A stretch of DNA of 58,114 nt from Anaerolineae bacterium (GTDB taxonomy: Bacteria > Chloroflexota > Anaerolineae > Aggregatilineales > Phototrophicaceae). Each line of letters starts with the position of its first letter. The stretch's first letter is position 1. The translations under genes were made by a program, and so were the position numbers. Under the pieces are notes generated by a model. That model was given only the letters and a program-made list of their open reading frames with translations. It was not told the origin of the DNA and ran no database searches. The DNA lies in contig JABWBO010000015.1 of the NCBI GenBank assembly GCA_013360465.1, positions 1 through 58,114 on the forward strand, read 5' to 3'. Of the stretch, positions 51,334 through 58,114 are shown piece after piece.

Positions 51334-51406
51334 GGCTCCGTAGCTCAATTGGTAGAGCAGTTGACTCTTAATCAATTGGTTGTGGGTTCGAGTCCCCCCG
51401 GAGTCA
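51334..51406 (+). tRNA. tRNA-Lys (anticodon CUU)
   Basis: 73 nt, CCA not encoded. Acceptor GGCTCCG/CGGAGTC with one G-U, D arm GCTC/GAGC, anticodon stem GTTGA/TCAAT, loop CTCTTAA giving CTT, T arm with the usual GTTCGAGTC. It is the last gene before the accessory block, so its 3' end is a candidate integration site. Confidence 0.96.
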
Positions 51407-51419
51407 CTTAGGTAAGTGA

Positions 51420-51455
51420 AGAGGCGACACTCTCAGAGTATCGCCTCTTTTCTTT
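51420..51455 (+). terminator. Intrinsic terminator after tRNA-Lys
   Basis: A long interrupted stem (GAGGCGA with TCGCCTC, then ACTC with GAGT, loop TCA) is followed by TTTTCTTTT. It ends the tRNA transcript and, read from the other strand, can end the converging minus-strand operon. Confidence 0.88.
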
Positions 51456-51469
51456 TGAGTCAACTGGTG

Positions 51470-51910
51470 TTACATGGGTAGAATAATCTTGCGCCTGGTC
51501 ATTTCTTCGAGCTGCTTTGCATCATCGGGCGTCATGAACAGGCGCGCAACTTCTACACCATCGGGTAAGCCTGGTGTGCTGCGCTGGCGACGCCTTAGAA
51601 TCGCATCAATCCCATAGGCGGTGCCCAACAGCGCGAGCAGCCAGATCACAATAACAGCCCACAGTACAGGGTAGGAGGTGATCAGCGCTTCATTGTTCTG
51701 CTGTCCAGCAACCGCTACTGCAAGCCCAAATGGAATCAGCCCTAGTGGCGATCCCAGCAGCAGCGCGCCCGCGCTGACCATGACGAGCGAGCGAAAGCTC
51801 ATGCGATACTCTTTGCGAAAGATGAGCCACAGTCCCACAGAGACGCCCAGAACCGTTATCGTTGCCCAGAATCCCAGTACAGCAGCGATCCCTATGCCAA
51901 AAGCATTCAT
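51470..51910 (-). CDS. Three-helix membrane protein of the accessory operon
   Basis: 146 residues with hydrophobic helices at about 7-29, 41-68 and 79-103 and a cytosolic C-terminus ('DAILRRRQRSTPGLPDGVEV', 'DDAKQLEEMTRRK'). Unrecognised family. It is the last gene of the minus-strand operon and its start is 11 bases after the stop of the small two-helix gene. It faces the tRNA-Lys terminator. Confidence 0.65.
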   Translation of the reverse strand: MNAFGIGIAAVLGFWATITVLGVSVGLWLIFRKEYRMSFRSLVMVSAGALLLGSPLGLIPFGLAVAVAGQQNNEALITSYPVLWAVIVIWLLALLGTAYGIDAILRRRQRSTPGLPDGVEVARLFMTPDDAKQLEEMTRRKIILPM

Positions 51911-51921
51911 TACGCTTCTCC

Positions 51922-52128
51922 TCAGGTGAACGAATCGTCATCACGAACGGCGAACGGGCTGCGTACTGTGACCCGCGCCGCGCGCAGCTGATACCCCACA
52001 AAAAGCATGATCGGAGTCCACAGGCAAAGCGCAGGGGTCATCAATCCCGGGCTACCTGTGAGTACGCCAAGAACGAGCAGCAGGACCGAAAGCGCCGCCA
52101 GGAGGATCGCCAGCATCAATCGTCTCAT
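51922..52128 (-). CDS. Small two-helix membrane protein of the accessory operon
   Basis: 68 residues with two hydrophobic segments (about 4-25, 'LMLAILLAALSVLLLVLGVL', and 29-47). The tail ends 'RDDDSFT'. Its ATG overlaps the stop of the FtsK-like gene (ATGA), so it is made in step with the ATPase and is a candidate membrane partner for it, since the ATPase lacks membrane segments. No recognised family. Confidence 0.65.
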   Translation of the reverse strand: MRRLMLAILLAALSVLLLVLGVLTGSPGLMTPALCLWTPIMLFVGYQLRAARVTVRSPFAVRDDDSFT

Positions 52129-56022: not shown

Positions 56023-56631
56023 ATGAAACGCTGCTTCGCTCTTCTCGTGTCTTCTATGCTTGCGGCGGCAACTGTGATCGCCCAGACTGCCGCGCTGACA
56101 CCGGGCTTGCATGAGGCGGAATCAGTCCCCCTCACACCCTACTACAGCGGCGCGGGGTGGGCGCAAGTCGTTGACGGCGATTACAGCGTCATGGAGAGCA
56201 GTGATACAGCGGACAGCGTTTCTTTTACCGCCAGCGGCTCTCAGATCATCCTCTACCGGGAGCTGCTGACCACTGGCGGCGCGCAAGCGGAGATTTGCGT
56301 TGATGCGATCTGCACTACGTTCACCAGCGTGAGCAGCATCGATCAGCGGGGCGTACCTATAGCGTTCCCCCTTGAAGACGAAAGCGAGGTCACAATCACG
56401 AATCTAGATGGGGGACTTCTACGGCTGGATAGCTTCCTGATTCTCGCCCCCAGCGAGCTGTCCGAATTGTCAGCGCCCGATCCCGCTCGCCAGCACGTGA
56501 CGCTGGCGGACGGCTCGATCGCGGCGTTCGATAGAACTTTGTCGGGCGGTGATGTTCTGCTGTTAGCGCTGGCAGCAGCACAACTCACCGCGCTCCTCAT
56601 CCTCATCGGGGTATCAGCATGGAAGCGCTAA
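56023..56631 (+). CDS. Secreted type I membrane protein of the accessory block
   Basis: 202 residues. A signal peptide (about 1-20, 'LAAATVIAQ'), a beta-rich outer domain (25-165) with two Cys in 'EICVDAICTTF' that may form a disulfide, and one hydrophobic helix near the C-terminus (about 178-197) before 'WKR'. The outer domain recalls carbohydrate-binding or adhesion modules ('SVSFTASGSQIILYRELLTT'), but no family is certain. The start lacks a ribosome binding site, in line with a leaderless message. It overlaps the next small gene by 13 bases. Confidence 0.7.
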   Translation: MKRCFALLVSSMLAAATVIAQTAALTPGLHEAESVPLTPYYSGAGWAQVVDGDYSVMESSDTADSVSFTASGSQIILYRELLTTGGAQAEICVDAICTTFTSVSSIDQRGVPIAFPLEDESEVTITNLDGGLLRLDSFLILAPSELSELSAPDPARQHVTLADGSIAAFDRTLSGGDVLLLALAAAQLTALLILIGVSAWKR

Positions 56632-56753
56632 TCCTGTATCTGCTGCTGCCAACATCATTCGTCACGTTCATTGTGATCGTCTGGAAGCTGATCGACACGT
56701 TCGTCGTTCGCAGCTTGCGCGACATCATCACGGGAGCATCTAGCGATGAATGA
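56619..56753 (+). CDS. 44-residue one-helix membrane protein
   Basis: ATG 56619 with GGGG seven bases upstream; overlaps the preceding gene. The sequence opens 'MEALILYLLLPTSFVTFIVI' and ends acidic after a basic turn ('RSLRDIITGASSDE'). One helix spans about 4-26. Its stop overlaps the next start region by eight bases. Size and shape recall minor coat or holin-like subunits; function unknown. Confidence 0.6.
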   Translation: MEALILYLLLPTSFVTFIVIVWKLIDTFVVRSLRDIITGASSDE

Positions 56754-56880
56754 AGCGTTCGCCTCCTGGCTGTTCGCCCAAACATCCGCCCCTGTGTGGG
56801 TAGCAATCGCCCTCGTGGGCGTGACGTGCCTGATTGTGCTGATCGTCGTTTCCTTTAAATCACTCTTCGGAGATGAATGA
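56746..56880 (+). CDS. 44-residue one-helix membrane protein (second)
   Basis: ATG 56746 with GGGAG nine bases upstream. Opens 'MNEAFASWLFAQTSAPVWVA', with one helix at about 17-37 ('VWVAIALVGVTCLIVLIVVS'), ending 'FKSLFGDE'. It has exactly the length of the preceding protein but the helix is centrally placed. Together they look like paired small subunits of a membrane assembly. Confidence 0.6.
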   Translation: MNEAFASWLFAQTSAPVWVAIALVGVTCLIVLIVVSFKSLFGDE

Positions 56881-56881
56881 C

Positions 56882-57337
56882 ATGTCCCCAAACCAGAGCA
56901 ACACGATCCCCTCCGCGCCACGTATGGCGCGCCTGTACATCCTCGCTGCTATCCTCGCCAGCGTGCTCCTCTCGATTGTTGCCAACGCGCCAGCGCTGGG
57001 CGCGGTGGGTCTGCTCGCGGGAGTCACCTTCCTGGCGCTGGACGAGTTCCAGACGCGCACGGGGCGCGACGTTCGCCAGGCAACCGGGCTGGCGCTGGTC
57101 GCGCTGGTCATCGCCGCGCAGATCGCCGTTCCGCTTGTGAGCCATGCGCAGGCTACCATCGACTTCGACGCCAGCGATCTGGATGTCTTCTTCGACTGGT
57201 TCAATACCATGTTCAACGCGATTCTGCCTATCGGTCTGCTGGGTGCGGGCATCGCGGCGGGCGTGGCTTTCGTGTGGGTGGTCGCGCGAATGCTCACCAA
57301 AGCATTCACGAGCATGCTGGGCGGTATGGGCGGGTAA
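56882..57337 (+). CDS. Pilin- or coat-like membrane protein
   Basis: 151 residues from ATG 56882 (GGAG nine bases upstream). Hydrophobic stretches lie at about 17-37, 39-52 and 68-86. The third ends 'PLVSHAQA', like a signal peptidase site. Beyond it a roughly 57-residue part has an acidic amphipathic start ('TIDFDASDLDVFFDWFNT'), one helix ('LPIGLLGAGIAAGVAFVWVV') and a basic end ('ARMLTKAFTSML'). That polarity matches filamentous-phage major coat proteins and VirB2/TrbC-like pilins. The role is inferred; cleavage is unproven. Confidence 0.6.
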   Translation: MSPNQSNTIPSAPRMARLYILAAILASVLLSIVANAPALGAVGLLAGVTFLALDEFQTRTGRDVRQATGLALVALVIAAQIAVPLVSHAQATIDFDASDLDVFFDWFNTMFNAILPIGLLGAGIAAGVAFVWVVARMLTKAFTSMLGGMGG

Positions 57338-57361
57338 ACAGCCTGATGAGGGGGACTGATC

Positions 57362-58114
57362 ATGATCAGGCTGTTTCGCGCTTACAAGAAGTGGCGCAAC
57401 CGCCCCGCCTACCCGGTCTACCGGGAGCGGGGCGGCTATGCCGCCTGGCTGCGGAAAGAACCGCCGCGCGGGGTGAACATCGCTCGGTTGATCGCCATGC
57501 TGATGACCGTGATCACCTTGCTGGGAATCGGAGCGGCGGGCATACTCGCCTATAGCGCGTTTTCGCAGTCACAGCAGGTTTCCAACCTGATCATGCTGCC
57601 CACGAGTACCGCCATCGTCGAAAGCACTACCGAAGCGACCGCCGAAAGCACCGCTGAATCAACCCCAGAAGCAACCGAGGAAAGCACCGCCGAAGCAACC
57701 GAGGAAAGCACCGCCGAAGCAATACAGGTCTTCGTTACCCGTACAGCAACCATCGCGGCAACACCCACCTTTACGCCGCGCCCGATCACAGGCGGGGCGC
57801 TGGCGACCATCGCCGCCGCCCAGACCAGAGAAGCGAACGCTACGCCCATGCTTGCGCCGCCGCGACTCGTCACCGGAGCGCCGCGCGAAGTGGAGATCGT
57901 CGTTACATCGCCGCCGCGCATCTTTGAAACGGTGATCGTGATCATCGCATCGCCGACACCGACCTACACCCCCACGCCCACCGCCACAGCGACCGAAACA
58001 GCAGAGAGCACCGCCGAAGCGACGGCTACCGAGGTCTGGACGCTCGAACCCCCCACGCTCGAACCGCCCACACCTGAAGCGACGGCTACCGAGGTCTGGA
58101 CGCTCGAACCCCCC
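57362..58114 (+). CDS. Membrane-anchored Thr/Glu/Pro-rich repeat protein (3' end beyond window)
   Basis: 251 codons are visible from ATG 57362 (GAGGGGGA upstream) with no stop before the window ends. A basic cytosolic N-terminus ('RLFRAYKKWRNRP', 3-15) and one helix (about 41-64) are followed by low complexity: ESTAEATE-type repeats (about 85-120), a Thr/Pro segment, then 'EATATEVWTLEPP' units in a 60-bp period. This is an extracellular stalk, potentially heavily O-glycosylated. The functional head is likely past the edge. Confidence 0.75.
   Translation, partial: MIRLFRAYKKWRNRPAYPVYRERGGYAAWLRKEPPRGVNIARLIAMLMTVITLLGIGAAGILAYSAFSQSQQVSNLIMLPTSTAIVESTTEATAESTAESTPEATEESTAEATEESTAEAIQVFVTRTATIAATPTFTPRPITGGALATIAAAQTREANATPMLAPPRLVTGAPREVEIVVTSPPRIFETVIVIIASPTPTYTPTPTATATETAESTAEATATEVWTLEPPTLEPPTPEATATEVWTLEPP
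57668..57715 (+). repeat. 24-bp tandem repeat, two copies
   Basis: Two identical 24-bp units (57668-57691, 57692-57715) encode Glu-Ala-Thr-Glu-Glu-Ser-Thr-Ala; a partial unit follows at 57716. Slippage here would change the stalk length of the encoded protein by eight residues. Confidence 0.85.
58016..58114 (+). repeat. 60-bp-period repeat at the window edge
   Basis: A 39-bp identical segment occurs at 58016-58054 and again at 58076-58114, where the window ends, so more copies may follow. It encodes the 'EATATEVWTLEPP' unit. Confidence 0.85.

Follow-up and report, generated by a model that had tools for sequence, protein, structure and literature searches.

A family of mobile elements at tRNA genes of uncultured Chloroflexota that joins an FtsK-type DNA motor to an operon of small membrane proteins

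Two kinds of described elements come closest to the locus reported here, the filamentous phages (Tubulavirales) and the actinomycete integrative and conjugative elements (AICEs). In Propionibacterium phage B5, a member of the Paulinoviridae, the genes encode in order 32, 27, 57 (coat), 485, 90 and 308 aa, and the order given for Thermus phage phiOH3 is VII, IX, VIII, III, VI and a Zot-like gene (PMC4763002). A survey of inoviruses was built on the pI proteins, and its main text makes no mention of Chloroflexi (PMC6813254). For AICEs, the published criteria are an integrase, a primase-polymerase (Prim-Pol) or other Rep, and FtsK (PMC3218068). The locus studied here occupies positions 51334-58114 of a 58,114-nt contig from an Anaerolineae bacterium; this contig, which is the entire contig C148 of genome G000, is called the window below (G and L labels denote genomes and stretches of this analysis, G000 being the window's own genome). 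The block combines an FtsK/SpoIIIE-type motor with operons of small membrane proteins. We confirm the block and find it to be one end of a mobile element, belonging to a family of mobile elements that integrate at tRNA genes of uncultured Chloroflexota. No such element was described in the titles and abstract openings on filamentous phages, integrative elements and viruses of Chloroflexota, and the family may represent an undescribed way of moving DNA between cells.

The movement of the family can be read from the assembly of G013, where 44 bp identical to a portion of tRNA-Gly(ccc) were seen in four settings. At the end of contig C22, the chromosomal flank is followed by this attachment (att) stretch; at the start of C43, the same 11-bp flank, att and the rest of the tRNA form the empty site; at the start of C65, the same flank and att lead into the element, giving the left junction; and at 18078 of C65, the element end, att and the element start form a circular or tandem junction. 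The last 5.2 kb of C65 also show a self-repeat with a period of 18,066 bp, and a separate right junction was not seen in this assembly. Because an empty site, a left junction and a circular or tandem junction co-occur in one assembly, it follows that the element family moves. Four relatives contain whole elements, spanning 21.2-22.4 kb, between direct repeats that include part of a tRNA gene: tRNA-Gly in G095 and tRNA-Arg in G059_C2 (44 bp exact in each), tRNA-Cys in G066 (76 bp exact) and tRNA-Gly in G516 (39/42 bp). The other stretches among the 23 examined had no flanking tRNA repeat, and many of them finish at contig ends; in G008 the same module lies behind tRNA-Lys at a different place. 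All five complete members (G013_C65, G059_C2, G066, G095 and G516) have a relative of the tyrosine recombinases in an all-open reading frame (ORF) search (phmmer E <= 3e-58 for the copy nearest att), with PF00589 recognised at E 4e-30 in G013 and 8.4e-23 in G059_C2. With a profile made from an alignment of 17 motor proteins of 626-749 aa from 14 genomes, the motor family was found in 18 of the 154 genomes of the order, G000 included, with 21 motors at E <= 1e-100. The preliminary description of the block had proposed mobility, and this patchy presence, the four whole relatives, the G013 junctions and an att-like copy on contig C84 of G000 now bear it out; the two patterns that it had named as contrary, the same block in all relatives with no att copy and housekeeping genes within the block, were not encountered.

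The possibility that the motor is simply the housekeeping FtsK was rejected. Element motors score 3e-125 to 2e-259 (n=21) and most of the other matches listed for the phylum sample 1e-60 to 1e-83, the exception being the G204 motor (1.8e-104), where the operon is present too; at 1e-35 the profile meets FtsK proteins in 373 of 400 genomes of the phylum. An AlphaFold2 model of the motor (8 sequences; predicted local distance difference test, pLDDT, 73) has coiled coils at its N-terminus and a winged helix (588-655) at its C-terminus, along with a beta domain and a RecA motor. The PDB structures closest to it are FtsK motors, some with double-stranded DNA (dsDNA), then the conjugation coupling protein TcpA of pCW3 (E 1e-17), then type VII ATPases, and the natural inference from this model is that of a sequence-guided dsDNA motor. 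The predicted motor fold is thus shared with TcpA and with the type VII ATPases EccC and EssC; the family differs from these systems in its accessory domains and in having no relaxase or VirB4 where these were searched. In sequence, NCBIfam equivalogs match the motor below their cut-offs, including plasmid TraB at E 5.7e-6. In a viral structure library, the named top rows were tailed-phage FtsK proteins and other ATPases. The preliminary description had found no standard conjugation or phage marker, and for tailed-phage markers this holds in the eight window proteins, where the motor alone gave a weak P-loop match, to a terminase family (E 1.4e-5). A tailed prophage was rejected as an explanation, with no terminase, portal or capsid gene in these eight proteins or in the scanned proteins of the relatives.

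The motor does not occur by itself. Motor and membrane operon are adjacent wherever the contig extends far enough, and runs of at least two consecutive genes of no more than 100 aa with one or two transmembrane segments (TMs) number 21 in 413 kb within 12 kb of a motor and zero in 430 kb away from it. That the module recurs in relatives, that the small-TM runs cluster near the motor and that a 43-bp repeat lies on C84 make the window module more than a chance arrangement. The usual order in the surface operon is A, tiny TM peptides (B), the coat-like C, D and E, while G and H precede or follow D, and in some loci other genes stand between C and D. In the distant relatives L126 and L141 the motor lies behind E on the same strand, separated from it by two genes in L126 and by a glycosyltransferase gene in L141, so that these loci read tiny TM, coat, adhesin, minor, motor; elsewhere motor and operon are divergent. 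The joint function suggested earlier for the two operons gains support from their occurring together, in L126 and L141 on a single strand. The B-type peptides are usually two, of 32-55 aa. In the all-ORF search, 11 of 16 loci have a pair of tiny TM ORFs immediately ahead of the first coat gene, and in four of these pairs one or both ORFs (32-49 aa) had been missed by the gene caller; among the other loci, three have a single ORF, G066 is ambiguous, and in G044 the pair precedes the second coat copy. G095 and G549 each have two coat genes in tandem, and G044 has two that lie apart. Proteins of 30-90 aa with one TM, as PMC6813254 gives for the structural proteins of filamentous phages, are present in the family.

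Two further properties of gene C recall filamentous coat proteins. In 19 of 19 C peptides the residues before the TM are acidic and those behind it non-acidic, as compared to 40 of 96 among the remaining small TM proteins in these stretches (p 7.5e-7, an optimistic value since the members are related), and the same charge polarity is present in the B5 and Pf1 coats that we tested. Also, the 60 nt of RNA behind the last coat gene fold with a mean of -20.4 kcal/mol (n=16) against -14.3 behind nearby genes (n=289; p 9e-5), and 14 of the 16 last coat genes are followed by a stem of 8 pairs or more, against 72 of 289 other genes. In the window, the hairpin has -26.4 kcal/mol for 57330-57385 (z -5.6 vs 200 shuffles). 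The position corresponds to that in Pf1, whose record has a terminator annotated after the coat gene, ahead of the following one. Profile searches added weak matches of G549-type peptides to filamentous coats (PF19199 at E 0.012 for one member, phrog_1646 at E 0.0085 for two); controls consisting of nine B-type peptides and one 76-aa TM protein gave no coat-family match, and most coat-like members had no informative profile match at all. The part of the window's gene C at 56882-57150 is an additional N-terminal portion with about three TMs, which is lacking in the other coat-like proteins displayed.

D is a large secreted adhesin-like protein with C-terminal TMs. Its terminus, two Cys and a TM, was found in 12 loci displayed, on contig C60 of G000, and on a separate 213-aa protein in G044. 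Domains were recognised in D of G057 (PKD, E 9.6e-17) and in A of G095 (LamG, E 1.3e-11); for the remaining D proteins scanned, the thresholds used let through no domain other than a weak CBM match in L126. These large secreted proteins with C-terminal TMs, the LamG and PKD domains found in one A and one D respectively, the many small TM proteins and an ATPase of the FtsK/HerA superfamily, would also suit a membrane-vesicle or pleomorphic virus-like element, where D and A would be spikes, the small TM peptides internal membrane proteins, and the motor would package DNA into vesicles. The filamentous phages fit the gene order and sizes more exactly, and we consider the vesicle explanation improbable.

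Like the Tubulavirales (B5, phiOH3, Pf1), the family has tiny TM peptides followed by a coat or coat-like peptide of ~50-60 aa, then a large protein in the place of the adsorption protein and a small one in that of the minor coat protein. Because of this gene order, the tiny TM pair before the coat gene, the polarity and the hairpin, it can be hypothesized that the element exports its own DNA, powered by FtsK, as a filament-like particle, a proposal that we consider as apt to be right as wrong. The element would integrate at a tRNA gene via its tyrosine recombinase, circularise, and replicate with its primase genes. The winged helix of the motor would recognise the element DNA, and the hexameric motor would pump that DNA, probably double-stranded, to a site at the membrane, where B1 and B2 (like pVII and pIX), C (pVIII), D (pIII) and E (pVI) may assemble round it. 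The resulting filament-like particle would be extruded without lysis and then dock on the next cell through D, and the PMT-like enzyme may O-mannosylate the Thr/Pro-rich stalks of the surface proteins. Zot (PF05707) was absent from all 14 host genomes searched, with 5 of 14 control genomes positive, so no other filament-type motor is at hand.

Several observations weigh against the filament proposal. The family uses an FtsK motor where the Tubulavirales use Zot/pI, its elements of 18-22 kb are large for the kind, and no rolling-circle Rep was found among the proteins scanned. Taken singly, the hairpins are less striking, since only 6 of 16 were matched by no more than 3 of 100 shuffles; the best-scored stem is not always directly behind the coat stop and may fall in the next gene; and both the hairpin and the polarity test were chosen post hoc on related members. 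The alignment of C by hhalign was not significant (6.5% probability vs the B5 coat, 1.5% vs Pf1). Two coat-like members with signal peptides match the TrbC/VirB2 pilin family (PF04956; E 0.010 and 0.011), and a holin family matches 3 of 17 coat-like members (best E 0.0045; 0.0017 for the full L052 protein). The AlphaFold2 model of D was poor (pLDDT 37), the 50 rows shown for the viral structure search, many of them unnamed, name no filamentous-phage protein, and scans of IMG/VR by an insensitive method returned no relative. Finally, a tyrosine integrase, Prim-Pol and FtsK also make up the AICE triad as set out in PMC3218068. Further differences from the Tubulavirales are the replication genes of the Prim-Pol, D5 or CHC2 type and the motor usually placed on a divergent operon, often with a PMT-like enzyme. 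The family is therefore not assignable to the filamentous phages, from which Zot, rolling-circle Rep and size set it apart, and it may still work like one. Going further, we tentatively raise the possibility of a new filamentous virus-like lineage, with an FtsK-class dsDNA motor in place of Zot and with plasmid-type primases, that would form a bridge between FtsK conjugative elements and filamentous phages; such a lineage would have escaped searches that begin with Zot/pI.

The same motor is central to a different explanation, AICE-like conjugation, in which FtsK would move dsDNA into a touching cell, with C as a pilin-like conduit and A and D as mating adhesins. Streptomyces TraB moves double-stranded DNA straight into the touching cell. 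A small hydrophobic pilin-like subunit along with a DNA motor is also known from the Ced system and the VirB2 pilins, a likeness to the family; the family peptide differs in its one strong TM and its acidic-N/basic-C polarity, and no VirB4 was recognised. Conjugation through a type IV secretion system was rejected, there being no relaxase or VirB4 among the proteins scanned: none was found in G013_C65 (six proteins of at least 200 aa besides the motor) or in G059_C2 (5 of 8 such proteins scanned), and the other elements were scanned in part for relaxase, VirB4, terminase, portal, capsid and Rep. With AICEs such as pSAM2 and SLP1 the family has in common a tyrosine integrase, a tRNA site, Prim-Pol, a single FtsK-type translocase and a circular form. 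Three of the five complete members have a recognised primase or primase-helicase, namely D5_N/DUF5906 in G013 and G516, Prim-Pol in G516 and CHC2 with DUF3987 in G059_C2; the Prim-Pol domain (PF09250) scores E 1.9e-21 in G516 and 9e-24 in L126, and no primase was recognised in G095 and G066, where few proteins were scanned. The occurrence of recombinase, Prim-Pol and FtsK in the family, the use of FtsK rather than Zot, the TraB and TcpA matches of the motor and the TrbC/VirB2 matches of two coat-like peptides all argue for AICE-like conjugation. So would the intergenic 10-mer clusters in G059:C6 (~157968-158222) and G013:C65 (14150-14392), with ACTATCACCC ~7x and AAGCGATCTA 5x, which are possible origin or clt-like (cis-acting locus of transfer) sites; on the other hand, the scan of 10 elements found no cluster of this sort in 6 of them, and it linked none to the motor.

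Compared with the AICE definition, the FtsK/SpoIIIE Tra (PF01580), the integrase with att (at the family level) and Prim-Pol are all found, Prim-Pol being not recognised in every member. The hosts, by contrast, are Chloroflexota (Anaerolineae) and not actinomycetes, and the family has a large operon beyond the AICE modules, those listed in PMC3218068 including no tiny TM pair, coat-like peptide or giant adhesin. AICEs are described there from Actinomycetales, but that survey covered Actinobacteria alone (PMC3218068). AICE-type Spd proteins were not recognised in the family, for which no dedicated search was made. Considering all this, conjugation of the AICE type seems to us a real possibility, short of a probable one. 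A third and more modest explanation would be a plasmid-like genomic island, with the motor serving in partition or segregation and the surface operon as cargo for functions such as adhesion, with no dedicated transfer. FtsK also acts in segregation, and a ParM-like actin gene in G059_C2 and a weak ParB-like gene in G013_C65 point in this direction; yet the surface operon accompanies the motor and the patchy spread requires some transfer route, and we regard the island explanation as very improbable.

If the coated filament proves true, filamentous phages would no longer be confined to small single-stranded genomes and to the Zot ATPase, and the usual search by marker gene would overlook such elements. 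If conjugation proves true, relaxase-free FtsK conjugation would cease to look like an actinomycete speciality and would have its own surface apparatus. Either way, Chloroflexota of the Anaerolineae type, known mainly from metagenomes, own a recently active mobile element.

In the window, gene calls, ARAGORN and PF01580 confirm that two divergent operons with an FtsK motor and membrane proteins lie right behind a tRNA-Lys, as had been described (Table 1).

Table 1. Features of the element's left end, in positions of the window
Feature	Position	Strand	Basis
tRNA-Lys(ctt), intact, insertion site (left junction)	51334..51407	+	ARAGORN
att-like core, 43 bp; exact copy at G000:C84:271521-271563	51365..51407	+	repeat search
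146-aa membrane protein, 3 predicted TMs	51470..51910	-	
Membrane protein of 68 aa, next after the motor gene; cluster c4 (9 members)	51922..52128	-	
FtsK/SpoIIIE-type DNA motor, 682 aa	52125..54173	-	PF01580 E 3.8e-25
GT-C glycosyltransferase-like polytopic protein, 506 aa; cluster c3	54170..55690	-	
Winged-helix regulator (wHTH), 81 aa, first gene of the minus operon	55665..55910	-	PF09339 E 1.4e-6
Inter-operon region, presumed divergent promoters	55911..56022	.	gene order
Gene A, 202 aa, signal peptide and C-terminal TM	56023..56631	+	
Gene B1, 44-aa single-TM peptide	56619..56753	+	
Gene B2, 44-aa single-TM peptide	56746..56880	+	
Gene C, 151 aa: extra N-terminal TMs, then 61-aa coat-like end (from ~57152)	56882..57337	+	
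Hairpin directly behind gene C, 12-bp main stem	57336..57376	+	folding energy vs shuffles
Gene G, single-TM protein with Pro/Thr/Glu-rich repeats, open at contig end	57362..58114	+	

The tRNA is separated from the first element gene by 62 bases, and neighbouring genes overlap by 4-26 bases at five places. The operons meet at ~55911-56022, a region in which a sigma-70 scan gave scores no better than shuffles. No homologue of the 146-aa membrane protein was found among the called genes of relatives. Glycosyltransferase cluster c3 occurs in 10 of 17 loci; three of four relatives' enzymes tested pass the PMT_2 cut-off (E 1.2e-11, 1.6e-9 and 3.1e-7), that of L141 does not reach it, and the window's is a weak match.

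The block's end at 58114 is that of the contig only, and the element runs further. Contig C60 (7,025 bp, reversed) begins with the window's last 43 bases, inside the tandem repeat of gene G, and goes on with the rest of G, then genes for H (118 aa, basic), D (673 aa, secreted, with C-terminal TMs) and E (a membrane protein of 193 aa), small genes, a Prim-Pol gene (PF09250, E 6e-20) and the first part of another gene. This content and order agree with the relatives, and C60 very probably carries on the window's element. The extension to the right called for by the preliminary description thus succeeded in part: it recovered a Prim-Pol and not the window's own integrase, as searching the contigs of G000 with the G516 D5 helicase and the G013 integrase returned no fitting contig. 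The copy of the tRNA-Lys 3' end that it had also called for was found, exact over 43 bp, on C84 at 243 bp from the contig end; ARAGORN found no tRNA there, and judging by this repeat, the far end of the element is probably on C84. The element-side end of that contig (271564-271806) resembles the C-terminus of an insertion sequence transposase, which would probably explain the contig break. An empty site was seen for the family member of G013 and not for the window's own insertion when the closest relative, G006 (about 90% identical), was used. The left contig of G006 stops inside a MOSC gene; on the right, similarity to C84 starts only at an ABC transporter, ahead of which G006 has a different gene; in the other 12 loci of the genus there is no tRNA-Lys beside the MOSC gene within ~1.5 kb or up to the contig end.

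Beyond the family proper, tblastn searches of INPHARED and PLSDB found no record covering 80% of the motor. Motor matches also came from L127, L129, L134 and L145 (Bdellovibrio, Omnitrophica, Bacillus), where the gene caller, its codon model trained on the window and its relatives, returned few or no genes. A distant branch occurs in other Chloroflexota (L251, L252, L253 and L254), several of its motors having N-terminal TMs; L253 (G322:C3, 17,193 bp), probably circular given a 77-bp terminal overlap, encodes a D-like protein and a secreted wall hydrolase of the NlpC/P60 type (PF00877, E 8.6e-18). The window's own genome has a second, distant family element, L049 (G000:C55, 8,745 bp), which has a motor, D, E and small TM genes of its own. 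Among accessory genes, cluster c7 (L037, L044, L045, L046, L051 and L052) resembles, as judged by eye, a DEDD-type exonuclease, and DEDD dinucleases are reported from AICEs and islands of Gram-positive bacteria (PMC11706625). Cluster c5 (L037, L040, L042, L045, L046, L047, L050 and L052) is a gene for a YdjM-like membrane protein near the motor, with PF04307 at E 2e-25 in L047. The element of L047 (G013:C65) also has five ATAACSGTTAT palindromes, near 4213, 8706, 12553, 14913 and 18028, which are possibly partition or replication sites.

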